64,000 nt of DNA from Rippkaea orientalis PCC 8801 (lineage in GTDB: Bacteria; Cyanobacteriota; Cyanobacteriia; Cyanobacteriales; Microcystaceae), in assembly GCF_000021805.1 (NCBI RefSeq), contig NC_011726.1:3690097-3754096 (forward strand), in the 5' to 3' direction. Shown piece by piece: positions 54,906-60,995 of this stretch (position 1 is the stretch's first letter; each line of letters begins with the position of its first letter). The position numbers were made by a program, and so were the translations under genes. A model generated the notes under the pieces. That model ran no database searches and had not been told where the DNA came from. It saw only the letters and a program-made list of their open reading frames with translations.

Positions 54906-55265
54906 ATGACAAATCTTGAAGACTATTTCAATATTTTAAGTCCCAATGATATTCGACTAAAAAACTCACGCATTGGGATTGAAACCCTTTTATATGAGTA
55001 TATCTATCGAGCCAAAAATCCAGAAGATATTGCTCAACTTTATCCCAGTTTAACCCTAGAGCAAATTTATGCCACTATTCTTTATTATCTCCATAATAAA
55101 AAGACAATCACGAACTATATGACCAACTGGCTAGAATACTGTTTAAAGTCTGCTCAAGAACAGGATGAAAATCCCCCAGAACATCTTGTAAAACTTCGTC
55201 AATTAAAAGCAGAAAGAACAACTAAAATCAGTAATATTAATGAGTATTCAGTATCTACTAGATGA
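54906..55265 (+). CDS. DUF433-type antitoxin
   Basis: The 119-residue product has a DUF433 pattern: IRLKNSRIGIETLLYEYI at about 16-33, then NPEDIAQLYPSLTLEQIYATILYYLHN at about 38-64 (helix-turn-helix followed by the YYL helix). A charged tail follows. DUF433 proteins are the antitoxin partners of DUF5615 PIN-like toxins. The gene overlaps the toxin gene by 26 bases. Confidence 0.85.
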   Translation: MTNLEDYFNILSPNDIRLKNSRIGIETLLYEYIYRAKNPEDIAQLYPSLTLEQIYATILYYLHNKKTITNYMTNWLEYCLKSAQEQDENPPEHLVKLRQLKAERTTKISNINEYSVSTR

Positions 55266-55602
55266 AAATCTCCCTCATCTTTATCGAGAACAATTACTCC
55301 GTCTTAAATCAGACTTAACCGTATGGATTATAGGCGATCCTGGTGTTCCTCCCAAAAGCACCTTAGATCCAGAAATCTTGATTTGGTGTGAACAAAATAA
55401 GTTTATTTTAGTAACGAATAATCGCGCTTCAATGCCCGTTCATTTAGCTGATCATCTTTCTCAGAATCGTCATATCCCTGGCATTTTTGTTTTACGTCCT
55501 AAAGCAAGTATTGGAGAAATTATAGATGATTTAATTCTCATTGATGAATTAGGAAATCCACAAGATTATCAAGACTGTATCAGTCATATTCCGTTTATCT
55601 AG
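55240..55602 (+). CDS. DUF5615 PIN-like toxin
   Basis: The 120-residue protein has a PIN-like fold: YLLDENLPHLYREQLL at about 5-20 with the first acidic pair Asp-Glu, GVPPKSTLDPEILIWCEQN near 36, and FILVTNNRASMP near 56 with the T-N-x-x motif. The family is predicted to cleave RNA. All the usual residues seem present, so this pair may be intact, unlike the other modules in the window. It converges on the giant gene with an 11-base gap. Confidence 0.85.
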   Translation: MSIQYLLDENLPHLYREQLLRLKSDLTVWIIGDPGVPPKSTLDPEILIWCEQNKFILVTNNRASMPVHLADHLSQNRHIPGIFVLRPKASIGEIIDDLILIDELGNPQDYQDCISHIPFI

Positions 55603-55613
55603 GATTCAGAGGA

Positions 55614-58600
55614 TTAATTCAACAGTTGTTCTAAAATTGTCGGATCTTTAATCTCTTGATCTTTGGCTAATAATAATACTTTAGAAACCACTTCGGCGGT
55701 TTTGGGATCATCATCAGCAAAGGGTAAAAATAGTCGTCCTCGGTGTTGAGAATGGACGGGAATAATACACAATGATCCCCCTGGTTGACGGTGAACAATG
55801 GCTGATCCTAAATGAACGGAATAACTGCCTAATTTTCCTTCAATTAACACATGAGAGTTTTGTAATTGGACGTTAGTTAACTTCAATAACCGACAGGTTT
55901 CTCTAACTAACGCGCTTCGCATTTCCACGGTGGATAAACTCGCTTCGGGATCAACGCCGCCTTGATGGGCTACACTAACCAATAAGTCTAAATCCCGCAT
56001 GACTTCACTAAAGAGTCTGGGGGGTATTTCTTGGAGTTTTAAGGGTTTCCACTCTCCTCGTGGCGTAAATGACACTCCTTCTAAGGTTAACCCGTCTACA
56101 TCCGCAGGGGTATAAAATCCTTCTAAAAACGACACCCAGACGGATATTCCTTCTTTATGAAAGGTTTTTCTAACGCCTTCTTCGGGACAAGTTATCCATC
56201 CCCGTTTTCCTAATAAGGCTAATGCTTGACGCGGGTTGACTTGATGTCCTTCATAACGGTTAGAAAAGGTGTCTGTGGCTTTTTCTGCGGGAGTTAAAAG
56301 GTATAATTCCCTGAATACTTGTTTAAATGGCTGTTTTCGTTCTTTTTCAAAGCAGTCTTTTTGCCAGAGATGCCATTGTTGAGTGGTTAATAAGTCATGG
56401 GAATGGGCAATTCTGAGATAAGATGACTTAATTATTTTATTTTTGCCATTAAAACTTTGTAAAGCTTTCCCTCCTTCCACGGGATACCCAATTTCTTCGT
56501 CTCCGATAAAGACTAATTGGGTTAGCATGGGGGACAAAACCGGATGGTGACAGAGTTTTTCTAACTCCTCTGGGGTAAAACTATCCCCCCGACACATTGC
56601 CTCTTCTAAGGAGACTCGCATCCGTGAGCCTTGACGAGTAATATCCTGTTTTCGTTGTTTTAAAGCGATAATATCAGCATTTTTACTAATTTTAGCAGGA
56701 ATAGACTTTAGTGTTTTGCCTTGCTTTTCGACTGTAATGACGGGTTCTCCGTTAGTGATAGCTAGGGAGATATTAACGTCATCTAGGGTGATAGTTTGCG
56801 GTTTTTCGACTAAATCTGCCACTGTTTGCGCTTCCATTGCCCATTCTAACCGTTGTGGGTCCCGATAACCTGCCGTACGGGAGAGGTTTTCTAGCGCGAT
56901 GGTGGCGGCTAATTTTTCACTCGCTTGACGTTGTGAGCCAAATTTTCGGCTAGTTCGGATAAATTCTTGAATAATTTGGTATCGTTGTAATAAGTCTTTT
57001 TCTCGCTGTGTTCCTTTTCCTAAAGGTAATAATCCCAATGCGCGGACGGTATCTTGATGACGTTTTTCGGTGATGCGGGTGATCAGGGTTTGGGGTTCAA
57101 TTTCCCCTAACATTGCTTGTGCAAATAGCTGCGATCGCTTGTGTCCCCCTGAACTAGAGGCGTATTTGGCAGCATTGATGATTTTTTGCCATTTTTCGCC
57201 CTTTAAATCCTGATAAATGCGCTTAAACCAGTCTACATCCACTGCACCATCAACTAAGCTTTCTGCGGAGAGGGGGGTTCGTTCGGTAACTTGTGCTACC
57301 CAACTTTCACGGATTTCTGAGGGCACTTGCCAGTTATTATCTTTAGTATGGGCATGAATCCACCAAACAGCTTCGGTAAAGCTTTTCCACGCTAAGGCTT
57401 CTTCAACGTAGTTAGACCATTGAGGAGCATAAAAAGCGAGATCAATGAGTCTTTCTTGACTGATTTTAGCTGCTTTTGCTTCTTTTGCAAATTGCTGCGG
57501 GGTGTCTGCTTCTGCGGGGAAACTAACTCGAATGAGATGGCTAAAGACAGCAGATTTGCTCAAATTATCATAAGTATAACCCCTAACTAGGGTATTTTTT
57601 CCTAATCCTTGTAATAGCTGAATAATAGGAATAATTCCTTCGACTGAGGATAAGGCTAATGCGGGTTCTGATGCTGCGGTGGGTAAGTCCCCTCGGTTTA
57701 ATTCGATGTCTAAAATACGCTGACGAATTTGATGACTAATTTCTTTTAAAAGGAGATCAAGTTCTGTATGTTTGCGTCGTGTAATTTGAGATAAATCATT
57801 AAAATTATGTCGATACTTATAGTAGGAATGAGTTGTGGAATTGTCTTGAGATTGAATGGGTTTTCTGAGAATTAAATAAGCGGTTATGTCAGCTTTTGTA
57901 ACTCCTCCTGCGTGGTAAGTCGCTATAATTTCTCCAAGATAGTTATGATTGTAATATAAATGCTCCAGAGAGTTAGTTATCCATTGAATAATTTGCCAAA
58001 ATCGAATTTGATGCGATTCTTTCCAACTGCTAATAAAATAGGGACGTAAAGACTCAGTTAAGTGAACCCATCCTAATAAAGAATCATTGATAGTCCAGAG
58101 TAAGTTACGGTTACTTTTGACTTTTTTCCAATCAATAGCGTTAATTGTTATTACTGTAGCATCTAAGAGAAAATCAAAAAGATTGTCAGGAGGATAAAGA
58201 CGAATTAACCACATTAAAATGCTTTTGATAATAGAGGGATATTTTAATTGAGAGAGTTCGTTGACTTGATTTTCTAAAGAGTTGAGGACTGTTTGCAATT
58301 GACTGAGGGGATCACTCAAGTTAAAGTGGTTTTGATTAAGGTACAATTGGTGATTAAATTGAATAGCGATCGCTCTTACTAATTCTAAATTATCTTGCTC
58401 GTTTAATTGTTGATACCAATTTTCCCATAAATCTCTTAAGGGTAATCTTTCGAGATCTTTTTCTAAGGGAACTTCTGAATTAGGATTAGGAAAATTCCAG
58501 TTGACATTTCCTAATAATTCCTCTTGCTTTCCTTGATAATTTTCTACAATAATTGGGATTTGTCGATGTTCATGGATTAACTGATCTAGAGATACTAAAT

Positions 58601-60521
58601 AACCCATGGTTTTAGCTGAAACTAAAACGGGTGTCTGCTTAAGTTTAGGGGAAGTTATGGGGTTTAATTCCTCTAAATTAACTAATCCTAATCCATTTTC
58701 CAGGCTAGGTTCTTCAGTTTCTTGTGCTAAAATTAACTTTAACCGATTGAGTTCTGCTTCTGATAAGGTTTGATGGGTTTCTTGATAAGTTTTAGCATAA
58801 TGACGACAAGTTTCGATTTGTCGTTTTTGTTGGATCATTTCTTGTAGTAATTCTAACCCTGCTTGACGTTGTAACAGTTTTTTAGACTTGAGCAATCTTT
58901 CGGCTGCTACAATAGACTCTGTATCATCTTGGTTTAATAATAGGGTTAATATTCCCCGTCGTAAATCTCCTGATTTACGGTTTAATAAGGTTTCTAAATA
59001 AATTGCTTCTTCTGGGGTTATTTTAACTTTAGACAATTGTTGAATGACTTTTTCCCTTACCCACTGACTACTATCTCCAATTAAAGAAAATAGCGTCTCT
59101 CGAATTTCTTGATCCCAAGGTTGAATTTTAGCTAATTTTTCAGCAATATTAGCTCTTGTATAGGGTTCACATAAACTAAGATAGGGAATAAGAGACTTAG
59201 GAGTTCTTTCTCCTAAATTATTAACTAATGCTCCCGCAACAGTACGCTGAGATACTTTAAGCTTTATCCAATCCCAAACAATAGGAGGTAATTCTTTTTC
59301 TTTTTCAGGAAAATGGGATAAAATGCTTTCTAATCTTTCAAATAAATCACTATTTTTAATATCTTTTTCATGATGGGAATATATTGAAAGCAATGCTTGA
59401 GTTACCACCCGTAAGTCGGTATCCTCTAAAGCAGGAAACAAAGCAATTTTTGATTGTTTAAATCCTAGTTGAAATAGAAAATAAACTGCTACAAATCTAA
59501 TTTCTGGATTGGGATTATTTAAACAAGTTTCCGCATAGGGAATAGCGGACATTGCATCTTCAAATCCTAATGTCCAAAGCGCACAATATAACCGTTGAGG
59601 ATCATCACTATTGAATCCGTTTATTCTTGCTTCAGAGTCTTCTAAAAAAAGACTAATTTGTTCTAGTATTTGTTTAATTAACTTCTGATTACTAGACTCC
59701 CACCCTAACCCTAACCAAACATCTACTCCCCTTACAACCGCGCTAAAACGGGTTAAATTGTGTTCTAAAATTAAGCGTATCATCCGTTTAAATGCTTCAG
59801 GATGTGCTTCGTCAATGGTTTCTAGAATAACTTGACGTAACCCTTCTTGTCGTTGCGCTGCAAGCAGCATTTTTTCAATAAATTCCCATCCTTTTGCATT
59901 AGAAGAAACGAGTAATCCTCTGGTAACATGACGACCCATTGCACCGATTTCATGTTCCCCGTTTGCGGAAGCAATTAAAATACTAAAAATCTCTTGTCCT
60001 ATTTCATTATTTTCATTAATTGCTGCTGCGAATAAAATGCCTAATGTATCGGCTCCATAATACCCTAAATAGGGAGTCCACGCAGCAAACCAAGCTAAGG
60101 GTTGTTCATATCCTTCTACAACTTGTAATAACTGCATTAACCATTGATAGCGACGGTCACAAAAAAATTCAGGATTATTGGGTAAACGAAAGGCTTTCCG
60201 TTGATATCCTATTTGATAGGGAAGTTGAGTTAAAAGGTGCCATGCTTGTTCAACAGTTTGCCAAAATTGAGAAAAAAGAATCCTAAAAATTTCTAATCTT
60301 TCCGTTGAGTTTAACGCTTCAAATTTTTCAATATTTTTGTTATTATGTTGATAGTGGCGAATCGTATCAAGGGGTTTACCTTGGGTATCACATCCTAATA
60401 GCGAGAACCCAATTTCTGCTAAGGTTGTCGGTAAACCTTTTATCTGTTCAATACGAGTCGTTTTCCAGTTCTTAACTCGTAATTCTTGTAATTGTTTTTG
60501 TGCTTCTTCTCGGTTAATCAT
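55614..60521 (-). CDS. Giant HEAT-repeat protein with DUF4132-type C-terminus
   Basis: The 1635-residue soluble protein has no signal peptide. Residues about 180-640 show paired-helix HEAT/ARM-like repeats, for example NPEIRFVAVYFLFQLG, DLRVVTQALLSIY and SSQWVREKVIQQL. Residues about 1165-1400 match DUF4132: EKLAATIALENLSRTAGY, RQGSRMRVSLEEAMCRGD, then HPVLSPMLTQLVFIG. The last 150 residues hold SEVMRDLDLLVSVA, GSYSVHLGSAIVHR and FLPFADDDPKTAEVVSKVLLL. DUF4132 proteins occur with WGR, MoxR or VWA partners in other bacteria, but the function is unknown. Here the only partner is the small Gly-Gly protein 36 bases upstream. Confidence 0.82.
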   Translation of the reverse strand: MINREEAQKQLQELRVKNWKTTRIEQIKGLPTTLAEIGFSLLGCDTQGKPLDTIRHYQHNNKNIEKFEALNSTERLEIFRILFSQFWQTVEQAWHLLTQLPYQIGYQRKAFRLPNNPEFFCDRRYQWLMQLLQVVEGYEQPLAWFAAWTPYLGYYGADTLGILFAAAINENNEIGQEIFSILIASANGEHEIGAMGRHVTRGLLVSSNAKGWEFIEKMLLAAQRQEGLRQVILETIDEAHPEAFKRMIRLILEHNLTRFSAVVRGVDVWLGLGWESSNQKLIKQILEQISLFLEDSEARINGFNSDDPQRLYCALWTLGFEDAMSAIPYAETCLNNPNPEIRFVAVYFLFQLGFKQSKIALFPALEDTDLRVVTQALLSIYSHHEKDIKNSDLFERLESILSHFPEKEKELPPIVWDWIKLKVSQRTVAGALVNNLGERTPKSLIPYLSLCEPYTRANIAEKLAKIQPWDQEIRETLFSLIGDSSQWVREKVIQQLSKVKITPEEAIYLETLLNRKSGDLRRGILTLLLNQDDTESIVAAERLLKSKKLLQRQAGLELLQEMIQQKRQIETCRHYAKTYQETHQTLSEAELNRLKLILAQETEEPSLENGLGLVNLEELNPITSPKLKQTPVLVSAKTMGYLVSLDQLIHEHRQIPIIVENYQGKQEELLGNVNWNFPNPNSEVPLEKDLERLPLRDLWENWYQQLNEQDNLELVRAIAIQFNHQLYLNQNHFNLSDPLSQLQTVLNSLENQVNELSQLKYPSIIKSILMWLIRLYPPDNLFDFLLDATVITINAIDWKKVKSNRNLLWTINDSLLGWVHLTESLRPYFISSWKESHQIRFWQIIQWITNSLEHLYYNHNYLGEIIATYHAGGVTKADITAYLILRKPIQSQDNSTTHSYYKYRHNFNDLSQITRRKHTELDLLLKEISHQIRQRILDIELNRGDLPTAASEPALALSSVEGIIPIIQLLQGLGKNTLVRGYTYDNLSKSAVFSHLIRVSFPAEADTPQQFAKEAKAAKISQERLIDLAFYAPQWSNYVEEALAWKSFTEAVWWIHAHTKDNNWQVPSEIRESWVAQVTERTPLSAESLVDGAVDVDWFKRIYQDLKGEKWQKIINAAKYASSSGGHKRSQLFAQAMLGEIEPQTLITRITEKRHQDTVRALGLLPLGKGTQREKDLLQRYQIIQEFIRTSRKFGSQRQASEKLAATIALENLSRTAGYRDPQRLEWAMEAQTVADLVEKPQTITLDDVNISLAITNGEPVITVEKQGKTLKSIPAKISKNADIIALKQRKQDITRQGSRMRVSLEEAMCRGDSFTPEELEKLCHHPVLSPMLTQLVFIGDEEIGYPVEGGKALQSFNGKNKIIKSSYLRIAHSHDLLTTQQWHLWQKDCFEKERKQPFKQVFRELYLLTPAEKATDTFSNRYEGHQVNPRQALALLGKRGWITCPEEGVRKTFHKEGISVWVSFLEGFYTPADVDGLTLEGVSFTPRGEWKPLKLQEIPPRLFSEVMRDLDLLVSVAHQGGVDPEASLSTVEMRSALVRETCRLLKLTNVQLQNSHVLIEGKLGSYSVHLGSAIVHRQPGGSLCIIPVHSQHRGRLFLPFADDDPKTAEVVSKVLLLAKDQEIKDPTILEQLLN

Positions 60522-60557
60522 TGTTTGATCTCCCTAATTATTTAACTTCTAACTTTG

Positions 60558-60995
60558 TTAACCTCCAACCAAAGGAACTAAGCGTAAAAATAACAGTTGA
60601 CTGTCTTCTTTAAGTGATATCAGTTGTTCTAAACTCTCTATTTGTTGGTCATCTATAAAAACATAATAAAACCCATCTTCAAACCCTTGTAAGGCAGTCT
60701 CAATAGCTTCTGTTTCATCTACTACTTGCTGATAATCTTTTCCTCCCATATCAATTTTACCCCGTAACGCTCCCTCATTAATTGCTTCTTGGGAAAGAAC
60801 AGAAATTAATCTTCTTTGTTCTTGACGAGTCCGAAACGCTGACACTTCTGACTTAACGATATAAGTTAATAAGTCTGACAACGTTAATTTTTTATCTGGA
60901 CTCAAAGCGGTTGAATCTAAAGATAAATTCCAATCAGGAAATAATGATTTATTGCGACCTAAAATTTTACCAGAAATGGTGATATTAGATAACAT
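60558..60995 (-). CDS. Small protein ending in Gly-Gly, possible ubiquitin-like fold
   Basis: From the ATG at 60995 (TAGGAA upstream) the protein has 145 residues. It starts with a beta-hairpin (NITISGKILG, WNLSLDS). A helix follows (LTLSDLLTYIVKSEVSAF), then a charged helical insert (about 55-105). It ends with strands FYYVFIDDQQIESL and LLFLRLVPLVGG. The strand-helix-strand order and the terminal 'LxPLVGG' resemble ThiS/MoaD and ubiquitin-like proteins, whose C-terminal Gly-Gly is activated and linked. No E1, E2, JAB or cysteine desulfurase gene is nearby. It is the first gene of an operon with the giant DUF4132 gene. Confidence 0.65.
   Translation of the reverse strand: MLSNITISGKILGRNKSLFPDWNLSLDSTALSPDKKLTLSDLLTYIVKSEVSAFRTRQEQRRLISVLSQEAINEGALRGKIDMGGKDYQQVVDETEAIETALQGFEDGFYYVFIDDQQIESLEQLISLKEDSQLLFLRLVPLVGG

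Follow-up and report, generated by a model that had tools for sequence, protein, structure and literature searches.

A Gly-Gly-ending small protein, its DUF4132–DUF7737 giant and a cysteine that appears to co-vary with the tail

What joins a small protein ending in Gly-Gly to the giant encoded directly behind it, and through which residues might the two meet? The question is raised by Rippkaea orientalis PCC 8801, in a 64,000 nt window (the whole stretch of DNA analysed) of contig NC_011726.1 (GCF_000021805.1, positions 3,690,097–3,754,096); coordinates below are those of the window, and all features of the pair lie on its minus strand. One gene (60558–60995) encodes a 145-residue protein, ubiquitin-like (Ubl) or MoaD-like with a predicted beta-grasp-like fold, whose translated C terminus reads FLRLVPLVGG. 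A second gene (55614–60521) starts 36 nt further on, on the same strand, and encodes a giant of 1,635 residues. A preliminary description of this DNA had reported this arrangement, including the end LRLVPLVGG, and the open reading frames (ORFs) confirm it. Among the copies that we examined in following the relatives of both proteins, the Gly-Gly end and a cysteine of the giant's DUF7737 domain, C1585 (TGT codon at 55767–55769, assigned from alignment columns), are kept or lost together. This suggests an undescribed protein-tagging or sulfur-transfer partnership and marks C1585 as a likely point of Ubl contact. The co-variation, as read from the alignments, appears to be new here; in the open-licence literature searched we found no description of the pair as a family, of its spread or of C1585.

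Co-variation of the Gly-Gly tail and C1585

Single-sequence searches for the small protein yielded little (relatives in 5 of 386 genomes of its phylum, R. orientalis included), so alignments were needed; an alignment query found it in 22 of 388 genomes from the same order, including one weak match with internal stops. The tail pattern F[LI][RK]L[VTM]PLVGG, run over genome contigs, hit 408 stretches; relatives are encoded in 370, of which the best 80 were kept. This pattern fixes Gly-Gly but not the stop codon, and by itself is unable to prove Gly-Gly conservation. The stop follows immediately after Gly-Gly in 80 of 81 tail-pattern matches, a count that rules out a chance Gly-Gly end; in the window, the codons GGA GGT of Gly144–Gly145 (60561–60566) stand immediately 5′ of the stop TAA.

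Sites free of the pattern were reached through the giant. DUF7737 was searched independently of the small protein in four phyla (5/146, 4/299, 8/247 and 6/246 genomes) and in one further order picked for a Cys-less case (4/125 genomes, three seen before); the giant was also searched in a plasmid collection, giving 11 records. Wherever these pattern-free sites combine an adjacent Ubl with the cysteine, the Ubl ends in Gly-Gly (17/17), and the residues ahead of it vary (PLKGG, TALAGG, TQLVGG and VALVGG). The 17 leave out R. orientalis, the draw centres L060, L063 and L072 (tail-pattern loci), the frame-broken L068, L163 (found via the genome of a tail-pattern locus), and L193 and L194 (found via the small protein); all of these carry Cys with Gly-Gly, except the broken L068 piece.

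Giants lacking the cysteine behave oppositely. All six that have an adjacent small gene (L168:8548–8979, L169:3392–3820, L170:8508–8921, L171:1790–2203, L184:3304–3720 and the small gene in L191) are accompanied by a different end: GSYW twice, GTYW, GAYW, GSIW and, on a Bacteroides finegoldii plasmid, GRLW. At the C1585 position these giants have Ser (four), Ala (one) or Asn (one). The small proteins, from a Bacteroidota clade, share the end G-x-[YLI]-W, with the final Trp in 6/6. Terminal Gly-Gly, whose invariance was in question, therefore holds across most of the family and is lost in 6/6 of this one clade, with a single further departure at L052. There, in a Sphaerobacter metagenome-assembled genome, the small gene (L052:8007–8468) abuts the giant's start and its product runs two residues beyond Gly-Gly (GGAV), the sole non-Gly-Gly tail among the 91 Cys-bearing sites that have a small gene beside them. 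Such a tail might have to be trimmed, as happens to some precursors of eukaryotic ubiquitin-like proteins, or might be an assembly slip.

Pattern-free giants that stand without an adjacent small gene fall into two kinds. Four have the cysteine (L124, L175, L195 and L196), and each of their genomes or records has a Gly-Gly small gene elsewhere. Two lack it: L179, where the Ubl was not found genome-wide, and L187, where it was not found in 13 kb; they have Phe and Asp at the C1585 position and are both long branches in the tree. Three more are fragments (L159, L164 and L172). In genome G080, the small gene (in L125:3134–5618) and the giant (L124:280–2817) sit on separate contigs, the small gene being followed by transposase-like genes near a contig end; the pair may have been split by an insertion element or by a break in the assembly. 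At L175 (3582–9637, genome G1354) the Cys-bearing giant and a second DUF4132 protein, an open frame of 1,221 aa with no DUF7737 match, are encoded back to back.

Taken over all 114 DUF7737 sites, 90 combine Cys with Gly-Gly, 12 have Cys with no small gene counted (a class that includes L091, which does have an adjacent one), one has Cys with another tail (L052), six have another tail and no Cys, two have neither Cys nor small gene, and three have a gap at the Cys column (the 59-aa L068 piece, L159 and L164); L172, a 56-aa DUF7737 fragment, was excluded beforehand. Among the 105 giants of at least 600 aa the corresponding numbers are 86 with Cys and a Gly-Gly Ubl (65 of them from tail-pattern loci), 10 with Cys and no Ubl counted, one with Cys and GGAV, six Cys-less with another tail, and two Cys-less with no visible Ubl; the column count and tree leave out nine sites shorter than 600 aa, six of which have Cys. 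In 40 columns of the last 480 residues of the 105, the 97 Cys-bearing giants (97 of the 99 outside the six, L179 and L187 having been set as their own class before the count) agree to at least 96%. C1585 alone among these 40 is altered in all six; six other columns are altered in some.

The two proteins and their spread

For the small protein, Pfam returns nothing at E ≤ 1, NCBIfam nothing close to a model's cut-off, and PADLOC no match. Its relatives are 129–154 aa long, for the start codons chosen, and a 68-row alignment has F136, L139, P141, L142, V143, G144 and G145 invariant, every row but R. orientalis having come via the tail pattern that fixes most of these residues. An AlphaFold2 model built from the 68 sequences (mean predicted local distance difference test score (pLDDT) 81, predicted template-modelling score (pTM) 0.69) has two strands, a short strand, helices and then four short strands. 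The strand–helix–strand order of the preliminary description is simpler than this predicted one. Foldseek against the PDB places SAMP1, the human and mycobacterial small subunits of molybdopterin synthase, the ubiquitin-fold domains of PI3K, 1wgk (which we take to be Urm1) and ubiquitin-like proteins in the top ranks. Agreement across this list, rather than any single match, supports a beta-grasp-like fold for the small protein; the fold and the terminal, generally conserved Gly-Gly are in keeping with what had been proposed, save for the loss of Gly-Gly in one clade.

The two genes are separated by 36 nt (60522–60557) with a purine-rich agggaga ahead of the giant's ATG, an operon-like layout. 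HEAT-like repeats and a DUF4132-like end had been read from the giant's sequence, and Pfam returns both, together with DUF5724 and DUF7737: DUF5724 spans residues 60–1229 (56835–60344; E 1.9e-246) and encloses HEAT_2 at residues 443–525 (E 1.6e-15), DUF4132 covers residues 1268–1442 (56196–56720; E 8e-48) with a conserved polar motif, QP..KQ..RE.Y..T..E, and DUF7737 residues 1532–1633 (55623–55928; E 2.7e-38). PF13569 and PF24879 score 163.2 and 130.5 bits (cut-off 27 each). Conservation is concentrated at the C-terminal end: among 73 aligned giants, 62 of 64 columns of at least 85% conservation sit at residue 1218 or later, and the N-terminal halves vary greatly in length. An AlphaFold2 model of L090, a shorter full-length relative (824 aa, 37 sequences; mean pLDDT 85, pTM 0.67), matches mainly HEAT/ARM scaffolds and a few unrelated structures in the PDB, with no match below E 0.001, and suggests that the N-terminal half is a HEAT/ARM-type scaffold. 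Foldseek with the whole giant gave solenoid-type and a few unrelated matches only, assigning no fold to the DUF4132–DUF7737 part; searched as sequence against solved structures, the giant found nothing below E 0.08, and the matches listed are helical.

The best 80 tail-pattern loci span Cyanobacteriota, Chloroflexota, Planctomycetota, Pseudomonadota, Acidobacteriota, Actinomycetota, Bacteroidota, Nitrospirota, Armatimonadota, Verrucomicrobiota and others. By a domain-based count, a DUF4132 giant lies in the same stretch as the small gene in 76 of them, which, with the beta-grasp-like model, upholds the proposal of a Gly-Gly ubiquitin-like protein tied to a giant scaffold. The giant follows within 400 nt 3′ in 67 loci and lies directly 5′ in three (order reversed, adjacency kept); in six more it is truncated, split or set back (L041, L055, L057, L077, L078 and L102). 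Two of the four loci counted without it end at a contig edge (L042 and L104), and the other two (L062 and L099) stand alone in genomes that carry DUF7737 giants elsewhere; of 13 genomes searched through giant-less or odd loci, 11 have DUF7737, the exceptions being the L042 and L104 genomes. Of 146 cyanobacterial genomes, five have DUF7737 and four the small protein, and those four have both. DUF7737 is found in 0 of 14 well-known control genomes, and DUF4132 in one of them, E. coli. These patterns of adjacency and co-occurrence support a functional pair, widespread in many bacterial phyla.

Its stoichiometry at the gene level is not always one to one: L084, L086 and L106 each have one small gene beside two giants, and G1354 and Nonomuraea each have one giant with an adjacent small gene plus one or more without. 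The ORFs of the 80 loci include no Ubl–giant fusion, which would have revealed docking. The R. orientalis genome has one copy of the pair, and the giant's nearest relatives in a quick tree are cyanobacterial. Six neighbouring ORFs in the window gave CxxCxxCC, GSDH, DUF433, a sub-threshold DUF5615 match, EamA and TPM in a profile scan. The DUF433 protein and the one with the sub-threshold DUF5615 match are convergent neighbours at 54906–55602, a layout often taken for a toxin–antitoxin pair.

Two plasmid loci stand apart. On the B. finegoldii plasmid (L184, 1542–10706) the pair is flanked by a rhomboid protease and a GAF-domain protein, and CbpM and a J-domain protein lie just beyond it on the opposite strand (compare the chaperones noted below for Deinococcus). 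An Iodobacter plasmid (L197:5077–12736) encodes two DUF4132 proteins, then an AAA ATPase and a DUF5682 protein, with no DUF7737 site; this is a DUF4132 neighbourhood of the other kind, without DUF7737.

Stress, activation and candidate mechanisms

One copy of the pair has been studied under other names. An exact RDR motif, GGTTATGCTATTTACATAAC, upstream of the small gene at L180 (0 expected by chance) identified this Ubl and giant as DRA0165–DRA0166 of Deinococcus radiodurans. A published table gives that motif at −83 of DRA0165, in a putative operon with DRA0166 (a DUF4132 protein) and within the DdrO regulon, and DRA0166 protein rises with mitomycin C in the wild type, not in an irrE mutant (PMC8533742; for this and the other papers cited, statements refer to the portions of text available). 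DRA0165 is also the stress peptide SEP068184, up after gamma rays and H2O2, for which a MoaD-like/SAMP1-like model is reported; it binds the thioredoxin DR_A0164, and DnaK, DnaJ and GroS are among its co-purified proteins (PMC9650054). The pair thereby joins two Deinococcus observations, a damage-induced DUF4132 operon and a stress peptide. In the same paper SEP068184 is thought to be Deinococcus-only and not RDR-controlled (PMC9650054); our data disagree with both statements, the RDR motif being present and relatives occurring in many phyla. Three other Deinococcus loci have RDR near-matches upstream of the small gene (1, 1 and 2 mismatches), whose numbers are within chance or mildly above it by shuffles, their position being the evidence.

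Beyond Deinococcus, five strict patterns for LexA-type boxes gave 0, 0, 1, 1 and 0 matches in 78 stretches (300 nt upstream of the small gene), against control means of 0.2–0.5, and damage control through such boxes is not supported there. A role in phage defence gained no support: PADLOC has no family for either protein, and the L090 giant is unmatched in 50,697 phage records. A scan of viral contigs with the giant alignment matched 37 stretches, none of them a relative. The conflict or stress system envisaged in the preliminary description thus keeps its stress half, through the published Deinococcus data on DNA damage and H2O2, with no damage boxes upstream of the 78 other loci and no sign of phage defence.

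We propose that the small gene product would be a dedicated Gly-Gly Ubl whose C terminus is handled by the giant. A housekeeping, unlinked activating enzyme (E1), most likely a MoeB-rhodanese protein, would activate the terminal glycine carboxylate, and the activated glycine would be transferred to C1585, forming a thioester or an acyl-(per)sulfide. Client choice may fall to the variable HEAT/ARM half, and action on the client to the conserved C-terminal half; the giant would then serve as a one-protein conjugating enzyme (E2) and ligase (E3), attaching the Ubl (or its sulfur) to clients under DNA damage or oxidative stress. In the Bacteroidota clade the chemistry would have been lost on both sides and the pair kept, presumably as a non-covalent complex. 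We infer E1 activation, transfer to C1585 and client modification; for a covalent Gly–Cys step of some kind, judged from the sequence pattern, we see the chances as even. The single-protein Ubl ligase, with a HEAT/ARM scaffold, a catalytic C1585 and Ubl supplied by a shared E1, takes up a part of those chances and is offered tentatively, as possible rather than probable.

Several observations weigh against this proposal. The six pairs lacking both Cys and Gly-Gly form one Bacteroidota clade (quick tree, support 99), so their joint loss counts as one event. When the 28 long giants are taken by themselves, all six differ at 30 of 296 near-invariant columns, and C1585 is thus not unique by this laxer count; it could belong to a docking pocket and form no bond. 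The fold matches are weak, with Foldseek E values of 0.03–0.3 in the upper ranks (probability up to 0.97) and TM-scores by query length of 0.24–0.46 among the matches listed, which also include PI3K domains and the staphylococcal EapH1 and SSL7. No covalent adduct is described in the open-licence papers searched. The SEP068184 knockout is more, not less, resistant to H2O2, and SEP068184 co-immunoprecipitations have 157 proteins common to all four tag versions, C- and N-terminal (PMC9650054); that a C-terminally tagged Ubl still recovers proteins is not what a free-tail mechanism would lead one to expect.

Companion genes are also lacking. No third gene family occurs in more than 13 of the 80 neighbourhoods (blastp clusters, E 1e-8; clusters 3, 4, 5, 10 and 11 come nearly all from the same eight Hymenobacter genomes), and no E2 or JAB family recurs among these clusters, with no search aimed at either. 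Nor is an E1 linked, as the preliminary description had noted for the window: a full-length MoeB-type protein lies in 1 of 121 stretches (L040, ~3.5 kb off), with weak partial matches in two more (L049 and L062). The R. orientalis genome has two ThiF-family proteins above cut-off; one is an unlinked MoeB-rhodanese protein of 390 aa, and the other is presumably HesA-like. A shared E1 has precedent, since mycobacterial MoeZ (MoeZR) acts on MoaD1, MoaD2 and CysO (PMC3227635).

The strongest alternative takes the small protein for a non-covalent regulatory subunit, whose Gly-Gly tail docks in a narrow groove beside C1585 and switches DUF4132 activity on or off. Gly-Gly would be needed since a bulkier tail misfits, and in Bacteroidota groove and tail would have been re-fitted together. 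The pair does persist in six Bacteroidota members without Gly-Gly or Cys and with a new shared tail, which makes its retention independent of the chemistry; the missing E1 linkage and the co-purification of proteins with a C-terminally tagged Ubl (PMC9650054) point the same way. Docking by itself leaves unexplained why 97 of the 99 giants of at least 600 aa outside the clade have Cys at this position and not just any small residue, and why 90 of the 91 Cys-bearing sites that have a neighbouring Ubl show a tail of exactly Gly-Gly (mostly pattern-found, with 17/17 pattern-free). We hold it to be conceivable, on the doubtful side.

A sulfur carrier would share the E1 step of our proposal and differ in its end. 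The Ubl would be thiocarboxylated by the MoeB-rhodanese E1, and its sulfur passed through a C1585 persulfide relay to a DUF4132-bound tRNA, protein or small molecule, making the giant the sulfur acceptor, as MoaE is for MoaD. MoaD- and SAMP1-like fold matches fit this, as do the rhodanese domain on the MoeB-like one of the genome's two ThiF-family proteins and the conserved polar residues of DUF4132, candidates for substrate binding. Among the neighbourhoods there is no obvious metabolic partner, given the 13/80 ceiling, and DUF4132 exists without DUF7737 and Ubl (E. coli YehI), so its core job is independent of a carrier; we think this version unlikely.

C1585 might instead be a redox or metal residue of DUF7737, its joint loss with Gly-Gly being coincidental in one diverged clade. 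The single clade, the 30 of 296 altered long-giant columns and the H2O2 phenotype in Deinococcus (PMC9650054) would allow this; C1585 alone being altered in all six among 40 columns near-invariant across long and short giants, and the absence of the cysteine from two giants with no Ubl in sight, make it improbable. A molybdate or molybdopterin function, extended from E. coli MolR and the MoaD-like fold, raised by PMC8533742 and PMC9650054 and in line with a modA gene ~1.8 kb beyond the giant on the opposite strand in D. radiodurans, is scarcely credible given that moeA, moeB and similar genes are not differentially expressed (PMC8533742), that no third family exceeds 13 of 80 neighbourhoods and that D. 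radiodurans has separate MoaD and MoaE (PMC9650054).

Whichever reading holds, a widespread pair without a linked E1 connects a Gly-Gly protein to DUF4132, a domain seldom named in the open-licence literature, and a tractable host together with a single-residue prediction makes an 'unknown function' directly testable.

Comparison with known systems

ThiS/MoaD carriers (CysO, SAMP1 and Urm1) are the nearest likeness of the small protein, through its beta-grasp-like model and possibly a shared E1; MoaD, too, ends in Gly-Gly after a hydrophobic strand. The small protein is longer (129–154 aa, against 74–99 aa for the matched MoaD and SAMP1 chains), falls short of the Pfam ThiS cut-off (E 0.06 at best, with matches in 2 of 68 members), and is partnered by a giant scaffold rather than MoaE, ThiG or CysM. 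DRA0165 (SEP068184) and DRA0166 are members of this family, published as a Deinococcus-confined stress peptide and a DUF4132 protein. The available portions of PMC9650054 and PMC8533742 do not mention the Gly-Gly end of DRA0165, and a term search found 'ubiquitin' and 'covalent' absent from the main text of PMC9650054.

E. coli MolR/YehI shares the DUF4132 domain (YehI scores 65.7 bits to a profile built from this family). Unlike the giant, YehI stops before DUF7737, and its neighbours are yehK, yehL (MoxR), yehM, yehP (VWA) and yehQ (SWIM), with no Ubl. A neighbourhood of the kind named in the preliminary description, which had linked DUF4132 to WGR, MoxR and VWA systems, was thus seen for YehI, and the link is not supported for the present pair: Pfam finds no WGR domain in the R. 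orientalis giant or 7 relatives scanned, and no third family of any kind is common to more than 13 of the 80 neighbourhoods by blastp clusters, with no MoxR- or VWA-aimed search elsewhere. Deleting molR1 together with lepA, the gene of a translation GTPase, causes a synthetic growth defect in E. coli, for which no explanation is given (PMC4245954).

Bacterial Ubl operons (PMC1779556), including Cap2/Cap3 of the anti-phage system CBASS (PMC10097602), offer the closest chemistry, the passage of a C-terminal Gly to a Cys enzyme, which is shown for Cap2 and cGAS (PMC10097602) and would apply here by our reading. These operon types encode their own E1, often with an E2 or JAB (PMC1779556, PMC10097602), in contrast to the present pair with no E1 linked; a term search of the available text of PMC1779556 gave no mention of HEAT, MolR or WGR.

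HECT-type E3 ligases with HEAT/ARM solenoids are eukaryotic. The likeness to them is one of layout idea only, a repeat scaffold followed by a C-terminal cysteine domain, and Pfam finds no HECT domain in the R. orientalis giant or the 7 relatives scanned. If the ligase version of our proposal were true, the giant would represent a HECT-like layout of independent origin, with no E2 of its own, tagging clients during DNA damage.

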